Assembly: GCF_020172665.1 (NCBI RefSeq)
Contig: NZ_CP083985.1
Span: 812,402-876,401 of the forward strand
Length of the DNA: 64,000 nucleotides
Direction of reading: 5' to 3'
From: [Mycobacterium] zoologicum
Lineage (GTDB): Bacteria > Actinomycetota > Actinomycetes > Mycobacteriales > Mycobacteriaceae
Shown here: positions 14,681 through 23,346 of the stretch, piece by piece
Numbering within the stretch: position 1 is the first letter of the stretch
Layout of the letters: every line of letters starts with the position of its first letter
Notes under the pieces: model-generated
What the model was told of the DNA's origin: nothing
The model's input: the letters and a program-made list of their open reading frames with translations, nothing else
The model's database searches: none
Translations under genes and position numbers: made by a program

Positions 14681-14739
14681 CGAGCGTGCACAAATGTCGA
14701 CCCCGACCTGGGGAAATACCGGATGCTTGTGCACGCTCG
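14681..14739. repeat. 59-bp palindromic intergenic element, copy 1
   Basis: CGAGCGTGCACAA (14681-14693) and its perfect complement TTGTGCACGCTCG (14727-14739) enclose 33 bp. A 58-bp element with nearly the same arms occurs at 30869-30926, so this looks like a small interspersed repeat family rather than a chance hairpin. It lies between the ferredoxin reductase and the kinase-like gene. Confidence 0.75.
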
Positions 14740-14750
14740 CGCAATCGACC

Positions 14751-14767
14751 GGAGAACGCTATTCTCC
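14751..14767 (+). promoter_or_regulatory. operator GGAGAA-N5-TTCTCC over a -10 box
   Basis: GGAGAACGCTATTCTCC is a 6-bp palindrome with a 5-nt centre. It contains a TANNNT -10 box (TATTCT, 14760-14765) and lies 26 nt before the kinase-like gene. It shares GAGAA-N5-TTCTC with the sites at 47378 and 31757 and closely with those at 30786 and 56657. Confidence 0.65.
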
Positions 14768-14792: not shown

Positions 14793-15839
14793 ATGGCGGA
14801 TGTGCAGGGATCACGACTCGATGAAGCCGCGTTGGGCCGCTGGCTCGACTCCGCCGGCGCCCCCGGCAACGGCGAGATGCCGCGGCTGGAACCGCTGTCC
14901 GGCGGCTCGCAGAATGCGCTCTACCGGGTGGCCGGTCGCGGGGCGCCGATGGTGTTGCGGATGCCCGGCGCCCGCGCCGACGCGGCCCGCCTCGACGGCC
15001 TGCGCCGCGAGATCCGGCTGGTGCGCGCGCTGGCCGGCACCGACGTGCCGCATGCCGCGCTGATCGCCGCCGACGACGCCGGCGATGTGCTGGGCCAGCC
15101 CTGCTACGTGATGGCCGAGGTCCACGGCTGGAACTCCACCGGCAACGCCTGGCCGGCACCGTTCGACACCGACCTGGATGCCCGTCGCGGTCTGGCTTTC
15201 GAGTTGGTGGACGGCGCGGCACGGCTGGGCCGGGTGGACTGGCGCGCCCAGGGCCTCGACGGGTTCGGCCGCCCGGACGGATTCCACGAGCGCCAGGTCG
15301 GCCGCTGGCTGGCCTTCCTGAACAACTACCGGGTGCGCGAGCTGCCCGGCCTGGACGAGGCCGCCGACTGGCTGCGCGCCAACCGTCCGGCGCACTACAC
15401 CCCGGGCATCATGCACGGCGACTACCAGTTCGCCAACGTGATGTACGGCCACGGCGCCCCGGCGAAGCTGGTCGCGATCATCGACTGGGAGATGACGACC
15501 ATCGGTGATCCGCTGCTGGATCTGGCCTGGGCGCTGCTCGGCTACGACGGCGAAAACCCGCGCACCGAAGGCTATTACGCCGACCTGGCCGGGATGCCGA
15601 CCCGATCCGAGCTGCTGGAGCACTACGAGCGGGTGAGCGGGCGCTCCACCGAGAACATCGACTACTACCTGGTGCTGGCGAACTTCAAGCTCGGGATCGT
15701 GCTGGAGAAGACGTACGCGGCCTCGGTGAACAGTGACAAGGTCGACCCGGCGGTCGCGGCGGCGATGGGCCCGATGATCCCGCAGCTGATCGCCGCAGCC
15801 GCCGATCTCGCCCGCTCCCTACCCGCGAAGCGAGCGTGA
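14793..15839 (+). CDS. APH-family acyl-CoA kinase-like protein (ACAD10/11 kinase-domain type)
   Basis: This 348-residue protein has the aminoglycoside-phosphotransferase fold. The Brenner loop HGDYQFAN spans 208-215 and the metal-binding Asp lies in IIDWE (229-233); SGGSQNALYRV near residue 36 is the nucleotide-binding strand. It is followed by an SDR after 1 nt and then by a dehydrogenase with ACAD10/11-like motifs. In animals that kinase and dehydrogenase are fused, and they phosphorylate and then eliminate the hydroxyl of 4-hydroxyacyl-CoAs. I infer the same chemistry here rather than antibiotic resistance. ATG 14793 has GGGAGG 7 nt upstream; GTG 14784 is an alternative. Confidence 0.8.
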   Translation: MADVQGSRLDEAALGRWLDSAGAPGNGEMPRLEPLSGGSQNALYRVAGRGAPMVLRMPGARADAARLDGLRREIRLVRALAGTDVPHAALIAADDAGDVLGQPCYVMAEVHGWNSTGNAWPAPFDTDLDARRGLAFELVDGAARLGRVDWRAQGLDGFGRPDGFHERQVGRWLAFLNNYRVRELPGLDEAADWLRANRPAHYTPGIMHGDYQFANVMYGHGAPAKLVAIIDWEMTTIGDPLLDLAWALLGYDGENPRTEGYYADLAGMPTRSELLEHYERVSGRSTENIDYYLVLANFKLGIVLEKTYAASVNSDKVDPAVAAAMGPMIPQLIAAAADLARSLPAKRA

Positions 15840-15840
15840 G

Positions 15841-16599
15841 ATGGGTTACGCCGACGCGCTGTTCGACCTGACCGACCGGGTGGTGCTGGTCACCGGCGGC
15901 AGCCGCGGGCTGGGCCGGGAGATGGCGCTGGCCGCCGCGCACTGCGGCGCCGACGTGGTGATCGCCAGCCGCAAGCTGGAGGCGTGTCAGGCGACCGCCG
16001 CAGAGATCGAGGCGCAGACCGGGCGCAGCGCCATGCCCTATGCGGTGCACGTCGGGCGCTGGGATCAGCTCGACGGACTGGTCGACGCGGTGTATCAGCG
16101 GTTCGGGCGGGTTGACGTGCTGGTCAACAACGCCGGCATGTCGCCGGTGTACGACAAGCAGACCGACGTCACCGAGAAGATGTTCGACGCCGTGGTCAAC
16201 CTCAACCTCAAGGGCCCGTTTCGGTTGTCCGCGTTGGTCGGTGAGCGGATGCTGGCCGCCGGGCGGGGGTCGATCGTCAACGTCAGCACACACGGTTCGC
16301 TGCGCCCGCACCCGTCGTTCATCCCCTATGCCGCATCCAAGGCCGGGCTCAACGCCATGACCGAGGCGCTGGCTCAGGCCTTCGGCCCCACGGTGCGGGT
16401 GAACACCTTGATGCCCGGGCCGTTCCTGACCGACATCTCCAAGGCGTGGAACTTCGGCGACGCCAACCCGTTCCGCGGCCACGCGTTGCAGCGGGCTGGA
16501 GAGCCAGTCGAGATCATCGGTGCCGCACTGTTTTTGATGTCGGATGCGTCCAGCTTCACCACCGGCTCGATCCTGCGGGCCGACGGCGGCATTCCGTAA
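15841..16599 (+). CDS. short-chain dehydrogenase/reductase
   Basis: This is a 252-residue SDR with TGGSRGLG for the cofactor, NNAG, a catalytic Ser in NVSTHGS and YAASK. The classical C-terminal FTTGSILRADGG closes the protein. It lies between the kinase-like gene (1-nt gap) and the ACAD10/11-like dehydrogenase (14-nt gap), so it probably oxidises or reduces a hydroxyacyl- or ketoacyl-CoA in the same pathway. An Arg after the first beta-strand (IASRK) favours NADP over NAD. The exact substrate is unknown. Confidence 0.85.
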   Translation: MGYADALFDLTDRVVLVTGGSRGLGREMALAAAHCGADVVIASRKLEACQATAAEIEAQTGRSAMPYAVHVGRWDQLDGLVDAVYQRFGRVDVLVNNAGMSPVYDKQTDVTEKMFDAVVNLNLKGPFRLSALVGERMLAAGRGSIVNVSTHGSLRPHPSFIPYAASKAGLNAMTEALAQAFGPTVRVNTLMPGPFLTDISKAWNFGDANPFRGHALQRAGEPVEIIGAALFLMSDASSFTTGSILRADGGIP

Positions 16600-16613
16600 G
16601 AGAGGATTTCGAC

Positions 16614-17912
16614 ATGGCATGGGATTTCTCCACCGAACCGGAGTTCCAGGAGAAGCTGGACTGGATCCGGGCATTCGTGCGCGACGAGGTCGAACCGCTT
16701 GAGGTGCTGTTCCCGGGCTGCGAATACCTGCCGCTGGACGACCAGCGCCGCAAGATTGTGGACCCGCTCAAGCAGCGGGTGCGCGAACAGGGGCTGTGGG
16801 CACCGCATCTGGGCCCCGAACTGGGCGGTCAGGGTTTCGGCGCGGTCAAGCTGACGCTGATCAACGAGATCCTGGGCCGGTCCAGCTGGGCGCCGATCGT
16901 GTTCGGCACCCAGGCCCCCGACACCGGCAACGCCGAGATCCTGGCCCGGTTCGGCACCCAGGCCCAGAAGGACAGCTACCTGGCCGGCCTGCTGTCCGGG
17001 GAGATCTTCTCCTGCTTCTCGATGACCGAACCGCAGGGCGGGGCCGACCCGCGGGTGTTCACCACCAAAGCCGTGCGCGACGGCGACCACTGGGTGATCA
17101 GCGGGCGAAAGTACTTCTCCTCCAACGCCTCGGTGGCGTCGTTCTTCATCGTGGTGGCGATCACCGACCCGGACGTGCCGGTGCACCGCGGGGCGTCGAC
17201 GTTTTTGATACCGGCCGGCACTCCGGGTCTGAACATCGAGGCCACCCATCACCTGGTCGGCTCGCAGCACCACGAGGCCGGGCATTCGCTGGTGCGTTAC
17301 GACGACGTGCGGGTGCCGGCGGAGGCCATCCTCGGTGAGCCCGGCCAGGGCTTCGCAATCCTGCAGAACCGGCTCGCCGGTGGGCGACTGCACCACGCGA
17401 TGCGGTCCATCGGGGTGGCCCAGCGCGCCGTGGACATGATGGCCCGCCGCGCCAAAAGCCGCTTCACCCAAGGCAGTTCACTGGCCGACAAGCAACTGGT
17501 GCAGGAGTTCATCGCCGACTCCTACGCCGAGCTGATCCCGTTCCGGCTGACGGTGCTGCACGCCGCCTGGCTGATCGACACCGCGGGCGAGGAGGCGGCC
17601 CGCGCCGAGATCGGGGTCTGCAAGATCCTGGCCTCGCAGGTGCTCAAGTCGATCGGCCTGCGCGCCATCCAGGTACACGGCGCGATGGGCCTGACCGAGC
17701 AGCTCCCGCTGGTCAACGTGCTGCTCGGCGGGGTCGCGCTCGGGCTGGCCGACGGCCCCACCGAGGCGCACAAGGTGAACCTGGCCCGGCTGCTGCTCAA
17801 GGGCTACGACGCCGAGGACCCGGAGTGGCCCAGCGAGTTCCTGGACAACCGCATCGAGGCAGCCCGGGCCAAGTACGGCGACCTGGTCGACCGGATCCCC
17901 GCGGTGCCATGA
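16614..17912 (+). CDS. acyl-CoA dehydrogenase, ACAD10/ACAD11-like
   Basis: This is a 432-residue acyl-CoA dehydrogenase. Flavin and substrate loops are SMTEPQGGADPR and ISGRKYFSSNAS. Two C-terminal segments, GGRLHHAMRSIG and LADGPTEAHKVN, resemble ACAD10/ACAD11 (GPGRIHHCMRT and LADGPDEVH, from memory). Where classic enzymes carry the helix-G glutamate this protein has Gly, as in that subfamily. Together with the kinase-like gene at 14793 it probably handles phosphorylated 4-hydroxyacyl-CoAs. ATG 16614 is 14 nt after the SDR stop. The stop overlaps the region of the next regulator's start. Confidence 0.85.
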   Translation: MAWDFSTEPEFQEKLDWIRAFVRDEVEPLEVLFPGCEYLPLDDQRRKIVDPLKQRVREQGLWAPHLGPELGGQGFGAVKLTLINEILGRSSWAPIVFGTQAPDTGNAEILARFGTQAQKDSYLAGLLSGEIFSCFSMTEPQGGADPRVFTTKAVRDGDHWVISGRKYFSSNASVASFFIVVAITDPDVPVHRGASTFLIPAGTPGLNIEATHHLVGSQHHEAGHSLVRYDDVRVPAEAILGEPGQGFAILQNRLAGGRLHHAMRSIGVAQRAVDMMARRAKSRFTQGSSLADKQLVQEFIADSYAELIPFRLTVLHAAWLIDTAGEEAARAEIGVCKILASQVLKSIGLRAIQVHGAMGLTEQLPLVNVLLGGVALGLADGPTEAHKVNLARLLLKGYDAEDPEWPSEFLDNRIEAARAKYGDLVDRIPAVP

Positions 17913-17919
17913 GCTCGCC

Positions 17920-18516
17920 GTGAACAGGGTCGACGCCGCCGTCCACCGGGCGCTCGACGACCGCCAGCAACTGGCCACCGCCGAGGTGGAGCGCATCCTG
18001 TCGGCCGCGGTGACGGTGCTGGCACGGGTCGCGCCCGAGGAGCCCCGGGTCAGCGACATCGTCGCCGAGGCCGGCTCGTCGAACAAGGCGTTCTACCGCT
18101 ACTTCGCCGGCAAGGACGAACTGTTCCAGGCGGTGATGGAACGCGGGGTCGGAATCGTCGTCTCCTATCTGGCGCACCAGTTGGCCAAGGAATCCACGCC
18201 CGCGGCTCAGATCGCCCGATGGATACGGGGTACGGTGGCGCAGGTGTCCGATCCGCACCTGTTGAGCCTGAGCCGAGCGGCCAGCACCCGACTGAGCACG
18301 GCCGGGGTCTCCGATGACCAGATCCTGGCACCACTGCGCGATCTGCTCACCGAACCGGTTGCGGCGCTGGGGAGTTCGGACCCGCGCCGGGATGCCGATG
18401 TGGTGTTCACCGCCACGCTGGCGACCATGCGCCGCTACCTGGGCGGCGCCGCCGCACCCAAGCGTGCCGACGTCGACCACCTGGTGCAATTCTGCCTACG
18501 AGGACTGGGAGCCTGA
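17920..18516 (+). CDS. TetR-family transcriptional regulator
   Basis: This is a 198-residue TetR protein. The N-terminal region ILSAAVTVLARVAPEEPRVSDIVAEAG followed by NKAFYRYFAGKDELF is the DNA-binding helix-turn-helix, and the remainder is a helical ligand-binding domain. GTG 17920 follows the dehydrogenase by 7 nt, and its stop shares one base with the next gene. It is embedded in the kinase-SDR-dehydrogenase operon and probably senses an acyl-CoA intermediate of that pathway. No dedicated palindrome is seen immediately upstream because the genes are packed. Confidence 0.85.
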   Translation: MNRVDAAVHRALDDRQQLATAEVERILSAAVTVLARVAPEEPRVSDIVAEAGSSNKAFYRYFAGKDELFQAVMERGVGIVVSYLAHQLAKESTPAAQIARWIRGTVAQVSDPHLLSLSRAASTRLSTAGVSDDQILAPLRDLLTEPVAALGSSDPRRDADVVFTATLATMRRYLGGAAAPKRADVDHLVQFCLRGLGA

Positions 18517-19484
18517 TGCACGCGATCGTCTGCGAACAGTACGGACCGCCGGAAAGCCTTGTGCTCAAAGAGCTTCCCGACCCGACGCTCGCACCGGGCA
18601 CCCTGGTGGTGCGGGTGCGTGCGGCGGCGGTGAACTTCCCCGACGTGCTGCTGATCGACGGTAGGTACCAGCTGAAGATCCCGCCGCCGTTCACCCCGGG
18701 CAGCGAGCTCGCCGGTGACGTGATCGCGGTCGGCGACGGTGTCGAGTTCGCGCCGGGCGACCGGGTGGCGGGGGCGTCATTCGTGGGCGGGTTCGCCGAG
18801 CAGGCGCTGGTACCCGCCGCGGCGGTGAGCGCCATCCCCGATGGAATCGACTACGCGGCGGCCGCCGGTTTCGGCGTCACCTACCGCACCGCCTATCACG
18901 CACTGCGCTCGGTGGCCCAAGTGCGCCAAGGTGATTGGGTGGTGGTGCTGGGCGCGGCCGGTGGTGTTGGCCTGGCCGCGGTCGATCTAGGTGTGGCGCT
19001 GGGGGCGAAAGTGCTTGCCGCGGCCTCGAGTCCGGACAAGCTGGCGGTGTGCACCGAACGGGGCGCCGAAGCAGTGATCGACTACGAGCGCGAAGACCTC
19101 AAGACCAGGATCCGTGAGATCACCGGCGACGGCGCGCAGGCGGTGCTCGACCCGGTGGGTGGGCCGTATGCAGAGCCGGCGCTGCGCAGCCTGGCCCGCG
19201 GCGGGCGGTTCGTCACGCTCGGCTACGCCGCCGGGTCCATCCCGGCCATCCCGCTGAACCTGGTGATGCTCAAGGGGATCGCCGTGGTCGGCATGGAGAT
19301 CCGCACCTTCGCCACCGACTTCCCGCAGGAGAACGAACGCGACCTCGCCGAACTGCAGCAGCTGTTCGCCAGCGGCAGGGTCAGCCCGTACATCGGTGCG
19401 CGCTTCCCGCTCGCCGAGACCGCCCAAGCGTTGCGCTACGTGGCCGACCGCAAGGCCATCGGCAAAGTGATCATCGACATCTGA
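18516..19484 (+). CDS. NADPH:quinone oxidoreductase-like MDR protein
   Basis: This is a 322-residue medium-chain dehydrogenase/reductase of the quinone oxidoreductase group. It starts MHAIVCEQYGPPESLVL and has the nucleotide-binding loop VVVLGAAGGVGLAAV. The zinc-ligand Cys and His residues of alcohol dehydrogenases are not evident, so it should reduce quinones or conjugated enoyl/enone substrates with NADPH. The ATG overlaps the TetR stop by one base. It is the last gene of the operon starting at 14793 and overlaps the convergent lipocalin-like gene by 14 bp. Confidence 0.85.
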   Translation: MHAIVCEQYGPPESLVLKELPDPTLAPGTLVVRVRAAAVNFPDVLLIDGRYQLKIPPPFTPGSELAGDVIAVGDGVEFAPGDRVAGASFVGGFAEQALVPAAAVSAIPDGIDYAAAAGFGVTYRTAYHALRSVAQVRQGDWVVVLGAAGGVGLAAVDLGVALGAKVLAAASSPDKLAVCTERGAEAVIDYEREDLKTRIREITGDGAQAVLDPVGGPYAEPALRSLARGGRFVTLGYAAGSIPAIPLNLVMLKGIAVVGMEIRTFATDFPQENERDLAELQQLFASGRVSPYIGARFPLAETAQALRYVADRKAIGKVIIDI

Positions 19485-21350: not shown

Positions 21351-21469
21351 CTGCGACGCCCTTTCGTTGACCATACTGAAATTCTTACTGTAGCGTCTCC
21401 GGGCGTGGGTGGAAGTGACTGCCCGGTCGGGCATCGGTCGATGAGTTCCGTTGCGCCGGAGTGCGACCG

Positions 21470-22531
21470 ATGATCCCCCGGCATCCGCAGGACGTGACGC
21501 GGGAGTGGCTTTCGGGCGCCCTGGGGGTCGAGGTGACCGCCGTCGAGGTGACGCCGGTGGGCACCGGGCAGACCGGGGCCACCTACCGGGTGTCGGCGAG
21601 CTATGCCGGCGGTTCGGCCGGCCTGCCGGAGACCTTCGTGATCAAACTGCCCGCCGGCGACGACGCCGTACGCGATCGGGTGGTGCTGGGCTACCGCAGC
21701 GAATGTGCGTTCTACTCGTCGGTCGCCGATCTGGTCGCGATACCGATCCCGCAGGTCTACCACTGCGAGATCAACGAGGACGCAACCGAATACGCGTTGC
21801 TTCTGGGCGACTGCGCTCCCGCGGTCCAGGGTGATCAGATTGCCGGCTGTGGCGAGCGGCAGGCCCATCTGGCGGTGACCGCACTGGCCGGGTTGCACGC
21901 GCCGACCTGGTGCGACGACCGCTGGCTGACCTTCCCCGGCCTGGCGATGACCCAGCTCGACGAGGCTGGCGCCAAGGGCATGGGCGACATCGCCCGGATG
22001 TGCGCGGCGACATGCGTGGAGCGCCTCGGGGACAAACTCGGCGACGCCGATTGCGCGACGCTGACCGCCGCGCTGGACGTGATCACCCCCTGGGTGTCGG
22101 CGCCGCTGGGCCGGTTCGCGCTGATCCACGGCGACTACCGGCTCGACAACATGCTGTTCAGTCCTGGCGGGGACCGGATCTGGATCGTCGACTGGCAGAC
22201 GCTGGGCGTCGGCCTGCCGGCCCGGGATCTGGCCTTCTTCACCGCCACCAGCCTGGAGCCACAGCTGCGTTCGGCGATCGAGGCCGATCTGGTCACCGCC
22301 TATCACTCCGCGCTGCTGCGTCATGGCGTGACCGGCTACGACCGGGAGACCTGTTGGCGTGACTACCGATTCGGCGTCCTACAGGCACCGCTGATCTGTG
22401 CGCTCGGGTTGGTGTTCGCCAGCGGAACCGACCGCGGCGACGACATGTTCGTGGCCATGCTGCGCCGCGCCTGTCGGGCCGTGCGCGAACTGGAAACGCT
22501 GGAGCTGGTGGAAGAGGTCTGCCGAACATGA
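21470..22531 (+). CDS. second APH-family acyl-CoA kinase-like protein
   Basis: This is a 353-residue kinase-fold protein with HGDYRLDN (220-227) and the metal-binding Asp241 in IVDWQ. TPVGTGQTGATYRV is the glycine-rich strand and FVIKL carries the ATP-contacting Lys. It is divergent from the carboxyltransferase and its stop overlaps the following crotonase gene by 4 nt. It clearly differs from the kinase at 14793, so the window has two APH paralogues next to acyl-CoA genes. A role in phosphorylating hydroxyacyl-CoAs is an inference. ATG 21470 is preferred to GTG 21461. Confidence 0.78.
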   Translation: MIPRHPQDVTREWLSGALGVEVTAVEVTPVGTGQTGATYRVSASYAGGSAGLPETFVIKLPAGDDAVRDRVVLGYRSECAFYSSVADLVAIPIPQVYHCEINEDATEYALLLGDCAPAVQGDQIAGCGERQAHLAVTALAGLHAPTWCDDRWLTFPGLAMTQLDEAGAKGMGDIARMCAATCVERLGDKLGDADCATLTAALDVITPWVSAPLGRFALIHGDYRLDNMLFSPGGDRIWIVDWQTLGVGLPARDLAFFTATSLEPQLRSAIEADLVTAYHSALLRHGVTGYDRETCWRDYRFGVLQAPLICALGLVFASGTDRGDDMFVAMLRRACRAVRELETLELVEEVCRT

Positions 22532-23346
22532 ACGCTGCAGCGCCGCGGCCACCGGAGGGGGATTGGCTGGGCACGCCGTTCCTGACGTTTCGGCGGGAGG
22601 GCCCGATCGCGGTCTGCACGCTGGACCGCCCCGAAGCCCGCAACGCGATGACGCCCGCGATGTACTTCGGTATCCGCTACGCCGTCGGCCGGGTCAATGA
22701 GGACCCCGACCTGGCCGGGCTGCTGATCACCGGCACCGGCGACGTGTTCGCCCCCGGCGGCGACATGGGCGGCGGCGGGGCGGATGACTGGATCACCTTC
22801 GGGTCCGCGCTGGGGATGGACGTCACCCCGTTCGACGCGCTGCGCAGCTCGGTCAAGCCGGTGGTCTCGGCGGTCAACGGACTGTGCCAGGGCGGCGGGC
22901 TGCAGATCGCCCTGTGTAGCGACGTCGCCGTGGTCAGCGACCGGGCCACGTTCCGGGTGCCCGAGCTGTTCCGCGGCATCGCCGACACCTACTACAGCCA
23001 GATGCTGGCGCGGGTCGTCGGCCCCGTCCGCACCCGAGATCTGATGTTCACCGGCCGCACGTTCGGCGCGCAGGAGGCACTCGAGTGGGGAATGATCGCG
23101 CGGGTGGTCCCGCACGACGAGTTGTTGGGCGCCGCGCACGACGTGCTGGCCCAGTGCTGCCGGACCGCGCCGGCGGCGCGGGCGGTGGTCAAGGCGACGC
23201 TGGATTCCTACCTGGGTCTGTATGACCGGATCGGGATGAGCAACAGCCTGGGCGCGCCGGAGGCCGTCGAGGGCTTTCGGGCGTTCAAGGAGCGCCGGTC
23301 ACCGGAGTGGGTGCATCCGGCGTTGCGGATCGACGGACGATTATAA
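22528..23346 (+). CDS. enoyl-CoA hydratase/isomerase family protein
   Basis: This is a 272-residue crotonase-fold protein with the substrate loops GDVFAPGGDMGGG and VNGLCQGGGLQIALCSDV. The first hydratase glutamate is replaced by Gln (GLQIA), while the second is present (RVPELFRG). It could be an isomerase or a hydratase with altered activity. Its start overlaps the kinase-like gene in ATGA, so the two products probably act on the same acyl-CoA. It ends at a 12-bp palindrome, AATGAGCTCATT (23346-23357). Confidence 0.85.
   Translation: MNAAAPRPPEGDWLGTPFLTFRREGPIAVCTLDRPEARNAMTPAMYFGIRYAVGRVNEDPDLAGLLITGTGDVFAPGGDMGGGGADDWITFGSALGMDVTPFDALRSSVKPVVSAVNGLCQGGGLQIALCSDVAVVSDRATFRVPELFRGIADTYYSQMLARVVGPVRTRDLMFTGRTFGAQEALEWGMIARVVPHDELLGAAHDVLAQCCRTAPAARAVVKATLDSYLGLYDRIGMSNSLGAPEAVEGFRAFKERRSPEWVHPALRIDGRL

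Follow-up and report, generated by a model that had tools for sequence, protein, structure and literature searches.

What reaction would bring together, as consecutive genes of a mycobacterium, a kinase of the aminoglycoside phosphotransferase (APH) fold, a short-chain dehydrogenase/reductase (SDR) and an enzyme of the acyl-CoA dehydrogenase (ACAD) fold? This question is raised by positions 14,793 to 17,912 of a 64,000-nucleotide stretch of [Mycobacterium] zoologicum DNA (NZ_CP083985.1, 812,402 to 876,401; hereafter the window), which is part of a complete genome of 4,425,202 bases; positions given below are those of the window unless marked as genome positions. An earlier note on this DNA had read the genes as a split counterpart of mammalian ACAD10/ACAD11, in which kinase and ACAD form one fused polypeptide and which in the window system are two. 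Our analysis leads to a related answer: the operon is probably a phosphorylative dehydroxylation module for 4-hydroxyacyl-CoA thioesters, and it appears to represent a sister lineage of the LvaC/ACAD10/11 family. In the sequence of events that we propose, the SDR would interconvert 4-oxoacyl-CoA and 4-hydroxyacyl-CoA, and the kinase would phosphorylate the 4-hydroxyl at the expense of ATP. Asp380 of the FAD-containing ACAD would then take the C2 proton, with transient use of the FAD, and the phosphate held by Arg253, His261 and Arg264 would be expelled, releasing a 2-enoyl-CoA to beta-oxidation. The unsaturated intermediate would perhaps be reduced by a quinone oxidoreductase (QOR)-like protein, and the operon would be repressed by a TetR-family protein at a palindrome at 14751-14767. 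The second and third steps are likely by analogy with ACAD10/11 and with LvaA/LvaC of Pseudomonas putida; the first and fourth steps and the repressor role are inferred more weakly. Gene order, active-site residues, phylogeny, conserved neighbours and conservation of the palindrome were established directly.

The arrangement of the genes is unambiguous. The predicted LvaA-like 4-hydroxyacyl-CoA kinase (14793..15839, 348 aa; Pfam APH, 103 bits), the SDR, predicted to be an LvaD-like 4-oxoacyl-CoA reductase or reverse dehydrogenase (15841..16599, 252 aa; adh_short, 173 bits), and the ACAD-fold enzyme, predicted to eliminate phosphate from 4-phosphoacyl-CoA (16614..17912, 432 aa; Acyl-CoA_dh_1, _M and _N), follow one another on the forward strand with spacings of exactly 1 and 14 nt. 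These coordinates match those first proposed, and the motifs quoted with them (HGDYQFAN, IIDWE, GGRLHHAMRSIG and LADGPTEAHK) are all found in the encoded proteins. A TetR-family gene, the predicted operon repressor (17920..18516, forward strand; TetR_N, 41 bits), begins 7 nt after the ACAD gene and is overlapped by 1 nt by the QOR-like gene, which encodes an MDR/zeta-crystallin-type reductase (18516..19484, forward strand; ADH_zinc_N, 91 bits). Because these two genes continue on the same strand, kinase, SDR, ACAD, TetR and QOR-like genes likely constitute one operon of five genes.

Read from alignment, the active site of the ACAD supports the proposed phosphate-elimination chemistry. According to a study of mouse ACAD11, the 4-phosphate is held by R626, H634 and R637, D753 is the base, R631 is generally conserved and H597 is helpful, and nonconservative substitutions of R626, H634 and R637 are the most disruptive ones in ACAD10/11 (PMC12440821). 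When these residue numbers are transferred through the 2WBI sequence, with the HCMR motif as anchor, Arg253, His261 and Arg264 of the window ACAD align with the three phosphate-pocket residues, and Asp380, Arg258 and His224 with D753, R631 and H597, all of them identical; agreement with ACAD11 extends to all seven active-site positions compared. The same pocket recurs among the named relatives. This set is the best 80 of the 566 found; most are actinobacteria, with many close mycobacteria among them. The seven-site pattern reads HRRHHRD in 78 of these and ERRHHRD in the other two, and the Arg, His, Arg and Asp of the phosphate-pocket and base sites are kept in all 80. ACAD11 and a putative ACAD of M. 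abscessus (4HR3) are also among the nearest solved folds.

Could the ACAD nonetheless be an electron-transferring dehydrogenase of the ordinary kind, and the kinase a protein with some other target that merely neighbours it in a lipid-catabolic region? With 70 domain matches the genome has an abundance of ACADs, and many CoA-metabolism genes lie downstream in the window, as this explanation would have it. Ordinary ACADs, however, mostly carry Glu as their catalytic residue within an uncharged pocket, and the window ACAD departs from that signature with an Asp and with Arg, His and Arg at pocket positions where the other ACADs of the genome mostly carry neutral residues (30 ACAD loci of this genome were aligned, minus L075 and L084, which were dropped by length). 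By comparison, in a fourth neighbouring pair at about 3.13 Mb (L032, genome 3,124,000-3,137,000; 5057-7275) the ACAD is of the Glu type, and the APH-like kinase beside it is without the two Arg positions seen in that of ACAD11. Given the catalytic Asp, the charged pocket and the recurrent kinase pairing described next, we rejected the ordinary-dehydrogenase explanation as improbable.

The supposed partnership of kinase and ACAD goes beyond chance. A kinase of the window type occurs in 72 of the 80 named loci, a figure that is not a census since these are the best 80 of 566 and many are closely related. Within the genome itself, all 70 matches to the ACAD C-terminal domain were translated and scanned, and the pocket motif R....R..H..R occurs in three of them: the window ACAD and two others at 2.78 and 0.37 Mb. 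Four of the 70 lie no more than 2.5 kb from an APH match, and all three motif carriers are among them (counted with the nine strongest of the genome's 12 APH matches). A degenerate codon pattern for GR..H.MR finds two sites in the genome, in the window ACAD and the 2.78 Mb ACAD. Three genes recur beside the ACAD in most or many of these loci, namely the kinase, the QOR-like gene (a homolog in 59, which makes it a recurrent partner) and the SDR (30, with clusters at 42% identity). The closest named ACAD carriers are Mycolicibacter senuensis (95%), M. sinensis (94%), Mycobacterium sp. UM_WGJ (93%) and M. icosiumassiliensis (92%), and by these identities a Mycolicibacter-like mycobacterium is the probable host.

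The window type also occurs more widely. It is found at 47-61% identity on plasmids of Rhodococcus, Streptomyces, Variovorax, Massilia, Caulobacter, Sphingomonas and Novosphingobium, and an annotated phosphotransferase lies near it in nine of the 10 plasmid loci taken from 30 listed for the window query; for the LvaC-type query, where nine loci were hand-chosen from 60 listed, a phosphotransferase gene lies near the ACAD in seven. An SDR of the same subfamily as that of the window (57-65%) adjoins the window-type ACAD on three plasmids, two from Streptomyces and one from Massilia. One LvaC-type locus, on a plasmid of Sphingobium sp. TomTYG64 (L050, 2929-10638), holds ACAD and kinase in a single run together with a 3-hydroxyacyl-CoA dehydrogenase, a putative epoxide hydrolase and a P450. 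In the family, the window type (best ACAD match below 1e-105) was counted by hand in 62 of 201 genomes. At the level of the class, with five candidates scored per genome, 197 of 296 genomes give a window-type profile match at or below 1e-90, and among the matches listed a gap between 1.8e-133 and 7.3e-119 places 55 of the 296 on the window side (hand count).

The kinase is consistent with the same chemistry. It carries the six-position pattern RERDND of ACAD11, made up of the catalytic Asp and Asn, the metal Asp, R176 and the helix-C Arg-Glu, and so do 72 of the 73 kinases of the named loci. The structure model of the kinase is poor at residues 211-230, and the absence of the ACAD11 kinase from the kinase fold matches listed is uninformative either way. 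The fold itself, together with weak NCBIfam matches to APH(3') and capreomycin phosphotransferase, might suggest a phosphotransferase that modifies antibiotics. These matches nevertheless reach 28.6 bits at best against a cut-off of 205, and 24.3 bits against 390, and the gene resides in a lipid-CoA operon that is conserved across genera; with scores so far under the curated cut-offs, we rejected an antibiotic-modifying role, to which we assign next to no credence.

How closely, then, is the operon related to ACAD10/11? Quick maximum-likelihood trees of hand-chosen rows (48 ACADs and 42 kinases, rooted with eight conventional ACADs and three kinases on long outgroup branches) were evaluated with the Shimodaira-Hasegawa-like approximate likelihood-ratio test (SH-aLRT) only. 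ACAD11, 4HR3 and the bacterial proteins that the 2.78 Mb ACAD retrieved stood for the ACAD11/LvaC type, and P. putida LvaA and LvaC were not included. The window type forms one clade (27 rows, SH-aLRT 97) and the ACAD11/LvaC type a separate one (11 rows, SH-aLRT 99), to which 4HR3, 41% identical to the window ACAD, belongs. These two and the 0.37 Mb ACAD unite in a single clade apart from the conventional ACADs (SH-aLRT 99, branch 0.96), so that the dehydrogenase, broadly speaking, does not group away from ACAD10/11; within this clade the window ACAD stands in the sister clade of the ACAD11/LvaC type rather than inside it. Among the kinases, 24 of the 26 from window-type loci form one clade with a single unlinked kinase of the genome (SH-aLRT 99), which mirrors the ACAD clade, and the window kinase is separated from that of ACAD11, which falls in a different clade (SH-aLRT 98). 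The kinase phylogeny is less clean than that of the ACADs, because the kinases of ACAD11 and of the LvaC-type loci (n=9) lie outside the window-type clade yet do not form a single clade among themselves. For comparison, LvaA is reported to be only 29% identical to the ACAD10/11 kinase domains (PMC11342911).

Kinase and ACAD lineages also exchange partners. On a Rhodococcus plasmid (L061), a window-type ACAD lies beside a kinase that groups with the kinases of two LvaC-type loci; in genome G359 (L206), the kinase beside a window-type ACAD is 33% identical to that of ACAD11 and 29% to that of the window; and in two mycobacteria (L045 and L163) the kinase of one window-type subgroup accompanies the ACAD of another. 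Such swapping fits a shared reaction. As for fusion, no open reading frame joining kinase and ACAD was found in 213 loci, many of them short, and ten places, most with long open frames, showed no fused gene either. The original description as a split counterpart of ACAD10/11 therefore holds for the kinase-ACAD partnership and the ACAD10/11-like active site, but the sister clade, the modest identity to ACAD11 and a kinase that does not group with that of ACAD11 set its limits: judged by sequence, the operon belongs to a lineage sister to the LvaC/ACAD10/11 family and is not the genome's closest counterpart to it.

A closer counterpart lies elsewhere in the same genome. The 2.78 Mb set (L029, genome 2,776,000-2,790,000; 6084-9095, minus strand) is a kinase-SDR-ACAD trio whose ACAD is 55% identical to ACAD11 and falls inside the ACAD11/LvaC-type clade, and by these measures it, rather than the window operon, is the closer split counterpart of ACAD10/11. 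It shares with the window operon the three-gene composition and the pocket residues; it differs in a kinase outside the window-type kinase clade. The 14 kb read there contain nothing that matches the QOR, and TetR is matched only weakly (35% over 69 residues). A third set, located at 0.37 Mb (L030, genome 360,000-374,000; 5816-10909), runs ACAD-kinase-SDR and then an acyl-CoA ligase that scores above the cut-off for the steroid-22-oyl-CoA synthetase CasI (1037.7 bits against 900); its ACAD keeps the R, H, R and Asp and has Thr at the H633 position. The SDR is thus part of both other sets with the pocket motif. In passing, the company of a CasI-like ligase hints at phosphorylative dehydroxylation in steroid side-chain breakdown. 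A further kinase (L031, genome 4,147,000-4,161,000; 6727-7746), 44% identical to that of the window, groups with a Caulobacter plasmid kinase and has no ACAD match within the 14 kb read. With two other kinase-SDR-ACAD sets in the genome, the window operon would not be the sole supply of a 4-hydroxyacyl-CoA route, and the expectation that it would by itself give the organism such a route did not survive; it is probably a second version of the route, perhaps with another substrate range.

What that substrate range might be is the next question. One possibility, which we hold to be worth serious attention while giving it distinctly less than even weight, keeps the mechanism and makes the physiological substrate a bulky gamma-hydroxy acyl-CoA (a terpenoid, a steroid fragment or an alicyclic acid) instead of a straight-chain 4-hydroxy fatty acid; it is a sub-case of the dehydroxylation module and not an alternative to its chemistry. 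The separate ACAD clade, the mostly separate kinase clade and the LvaC-type set already present at 2.78 Mb all point this way, as do the P450, amidohydrolase, LLM oxidoreductase and alpha/beta-hydrolase genes among which the plasmid relatives lie, the bile acid:sodium symporter-family gene near the Massilia plasmid relative and the CasI-type ligase that follows the third set. Nevertheless, no conserved neighbour in the 80 loci names a single substrate, and the CasI hint belongs to a different locus. Carried further, these observations would describe a second, separately radiated bacterial lineage of phosphorylative dehydroxylation, equipped with kinases, an SDR and a reductase of its own and, among mycobacteria, with a TetR switch, that removes gamma-hydroxyls from acyl-CoAs, probably branched or alicyclic, which LvaA/LvaC and ACAD10/11 do not handle, one mycobacterium carrying up to three parallel systems. 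We advance this picture tentatively, as a conjecture that could well prove mistaken. Text searches of open-licence papers, judged by titles and the beginnings of abstracts, brought up no account of such a lineage.

Comparison with the lva operon of P. putida helps to place the remaining genes. As had been pointed out, both systems possess separate genes for an APH kinase and an ACAD; an SDR gene is linked to these in each, and phosphorylation with subsequent phosphate elimination is predicted; the window operon differs in having neither LvaB nor LvaE, in its extra QOR-like gene and in a TetR gene with its own palindrome in place of the lva regulator LvaR. The SDR had been left unexplained by the earlier note. 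The lva SDR, LvaD, converts levulinyl-CoA to 4-hydroxyvaleryl-CoA (PMC6692424), so the most plausible reading of the window SDR is an LvaD-like one, as a 4-oxoacyl-CoA reductase or the reverse dehydrogenase. For the QOR-like protein, which at 229.4 bits is below the TIGR02824 cut-off of 296.8, a 2024 study provides a clue in a proposed 2,4-dienoyl-CoA intermediate reduced by FADH2 (PMC11342911). A reductase dedicated to dienoyl or enoyl substrates would suit such an intermediate, and our guess is that the protein possibly acts on an enoyl- or 2-en-4-oxo-acyl-CoA.

Several observations weigh against the dehydroxylation module as we have drawn it. The window type of kinase is lacking in eight of the 80 named loci and in one of the 10 plasmid loci, some of which are short, and two of the 26 partner kinases fall outside the window-type kinase clade, namely the Rhodococcus kinase of L061 and a plasmid kinase (L057) that is far from all others in the tree. 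The window ACAD is only 38% identical to ACAD11; LvaC is reported to be 56% identical to ACAD11 and 62% to ACAD10 (PMC11342911), and for this reason the substrate may differ. SDR and QOR are broad families. No AMP-binding match, as expected of an acyl-CoA synthetase, occurs in Pfam searches of the five operon genes, and the gaps of 1 and 14 nt leave no room for LvaB; in P. citronellolis, too, lvaB is reported not to be found (PMC6692424), from which it follows that LvaB is not essential to such systems. The kinase raises two further difficulties. The numbering does not locate R86 of the ACAD11 paper: with the count set so that D220, N225 and R176 fit, the Arg next to the helix-C Glu comes out as 84 and not 86. 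Moreover, alignment suggests that R176 has a counterpart in the 25-hydroxysteroid kinase (25-HSK, 9fsg) of Sterolibacterium, which makes the evidence for CoA binding soft.

This last enzyme is also the model for a different role, in which the kinase would phosphorylate a non-CoA alcohol and the ACAD would act later in the same pathway. 25-HSK is likewise an APH-type kinase that activates an alcohol for elimination; it differs in its steroid, non-CoA substrate, its sequence and fold match to the window kinase is weaker than that of 3dxp, and the part of its description available records no lyase candidate near its gene. We regard a non-CoA substrate as rather unlikely and continue to favour the phosphorylation of 4-hydroxyacyl-CoA.

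Is the module under its own control? The palindrome GGAGAA-N5-TTCTCC at 14751-14767 (no strand), a predicted TetR operator, ends 25 nt before the kinase start codon and is the sole exact match in the genome (one palindromic site, counted on both strands). When its ends are relaxed to A/G and C/T, a site is present a short way upstream of the kinase in 24 of the 27 named relatives with the TetR gene (at least 60% identity, same strand) and in none of the 53 others, and the 846,362 bases scanned hold 25 such sites in total; the loci that bear it are close relatives, and common descent contributes to this conservation. A perfect 13-nt inverted repeat (14681-14693 and 14727-14739; one genome match for the pattern tried, folding z-score -4.7) lies nearby. 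It was considered as the TetR operator and rejected, not being found upstream of the kinase in 13 relatives. Since the palindrome tracks the TetR gene, whereas the neighbouring repeat is not kept, the TetR protein is probably the operon's own repressor, acting through the palindrome at 14751-14767, in agreement with the dedicated regulator that had been proposed.

Not until 2024-2025 was dehydroxylation through phosphorylation and flavin-assisted elimination ascribed to ACAD10/11. A sister lineage whose pocket is intact would supply independent enzymes for probing the participation of FAD, and the split partners would be simpler to assay than a fused protein. The operon likewise offers a concrete way to ask which gamma-hydroxy acids mycobacteria degrade, and the labels "aminoglycoside phosphotransferase" and "acyl-CoA dehydrogenase" on such pairs may conceal a pathway.

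The surroundings of the operon are mixed in character. Upstream lie genes that by eye resemble ribosomal and elongation-factor genes, a mycofactocin-coupled SDR (384.5 bits, cut-off 269) and a ferredoxin-reductase-like gene. Downstream, at 21461-23346, a second APH/EcKL-like kinase gene, of a different kinase family, overlaps an enoyl-CoA-hydratase-like gene by 4 nt. Positions 23833-60170 contain an extended run of CoA-metabolism genes, including acyl-CoA ligases, several ACADs and an F420-type oxidoreductase, along with a mutase N-terminal domain followed by a 136-aa protein.

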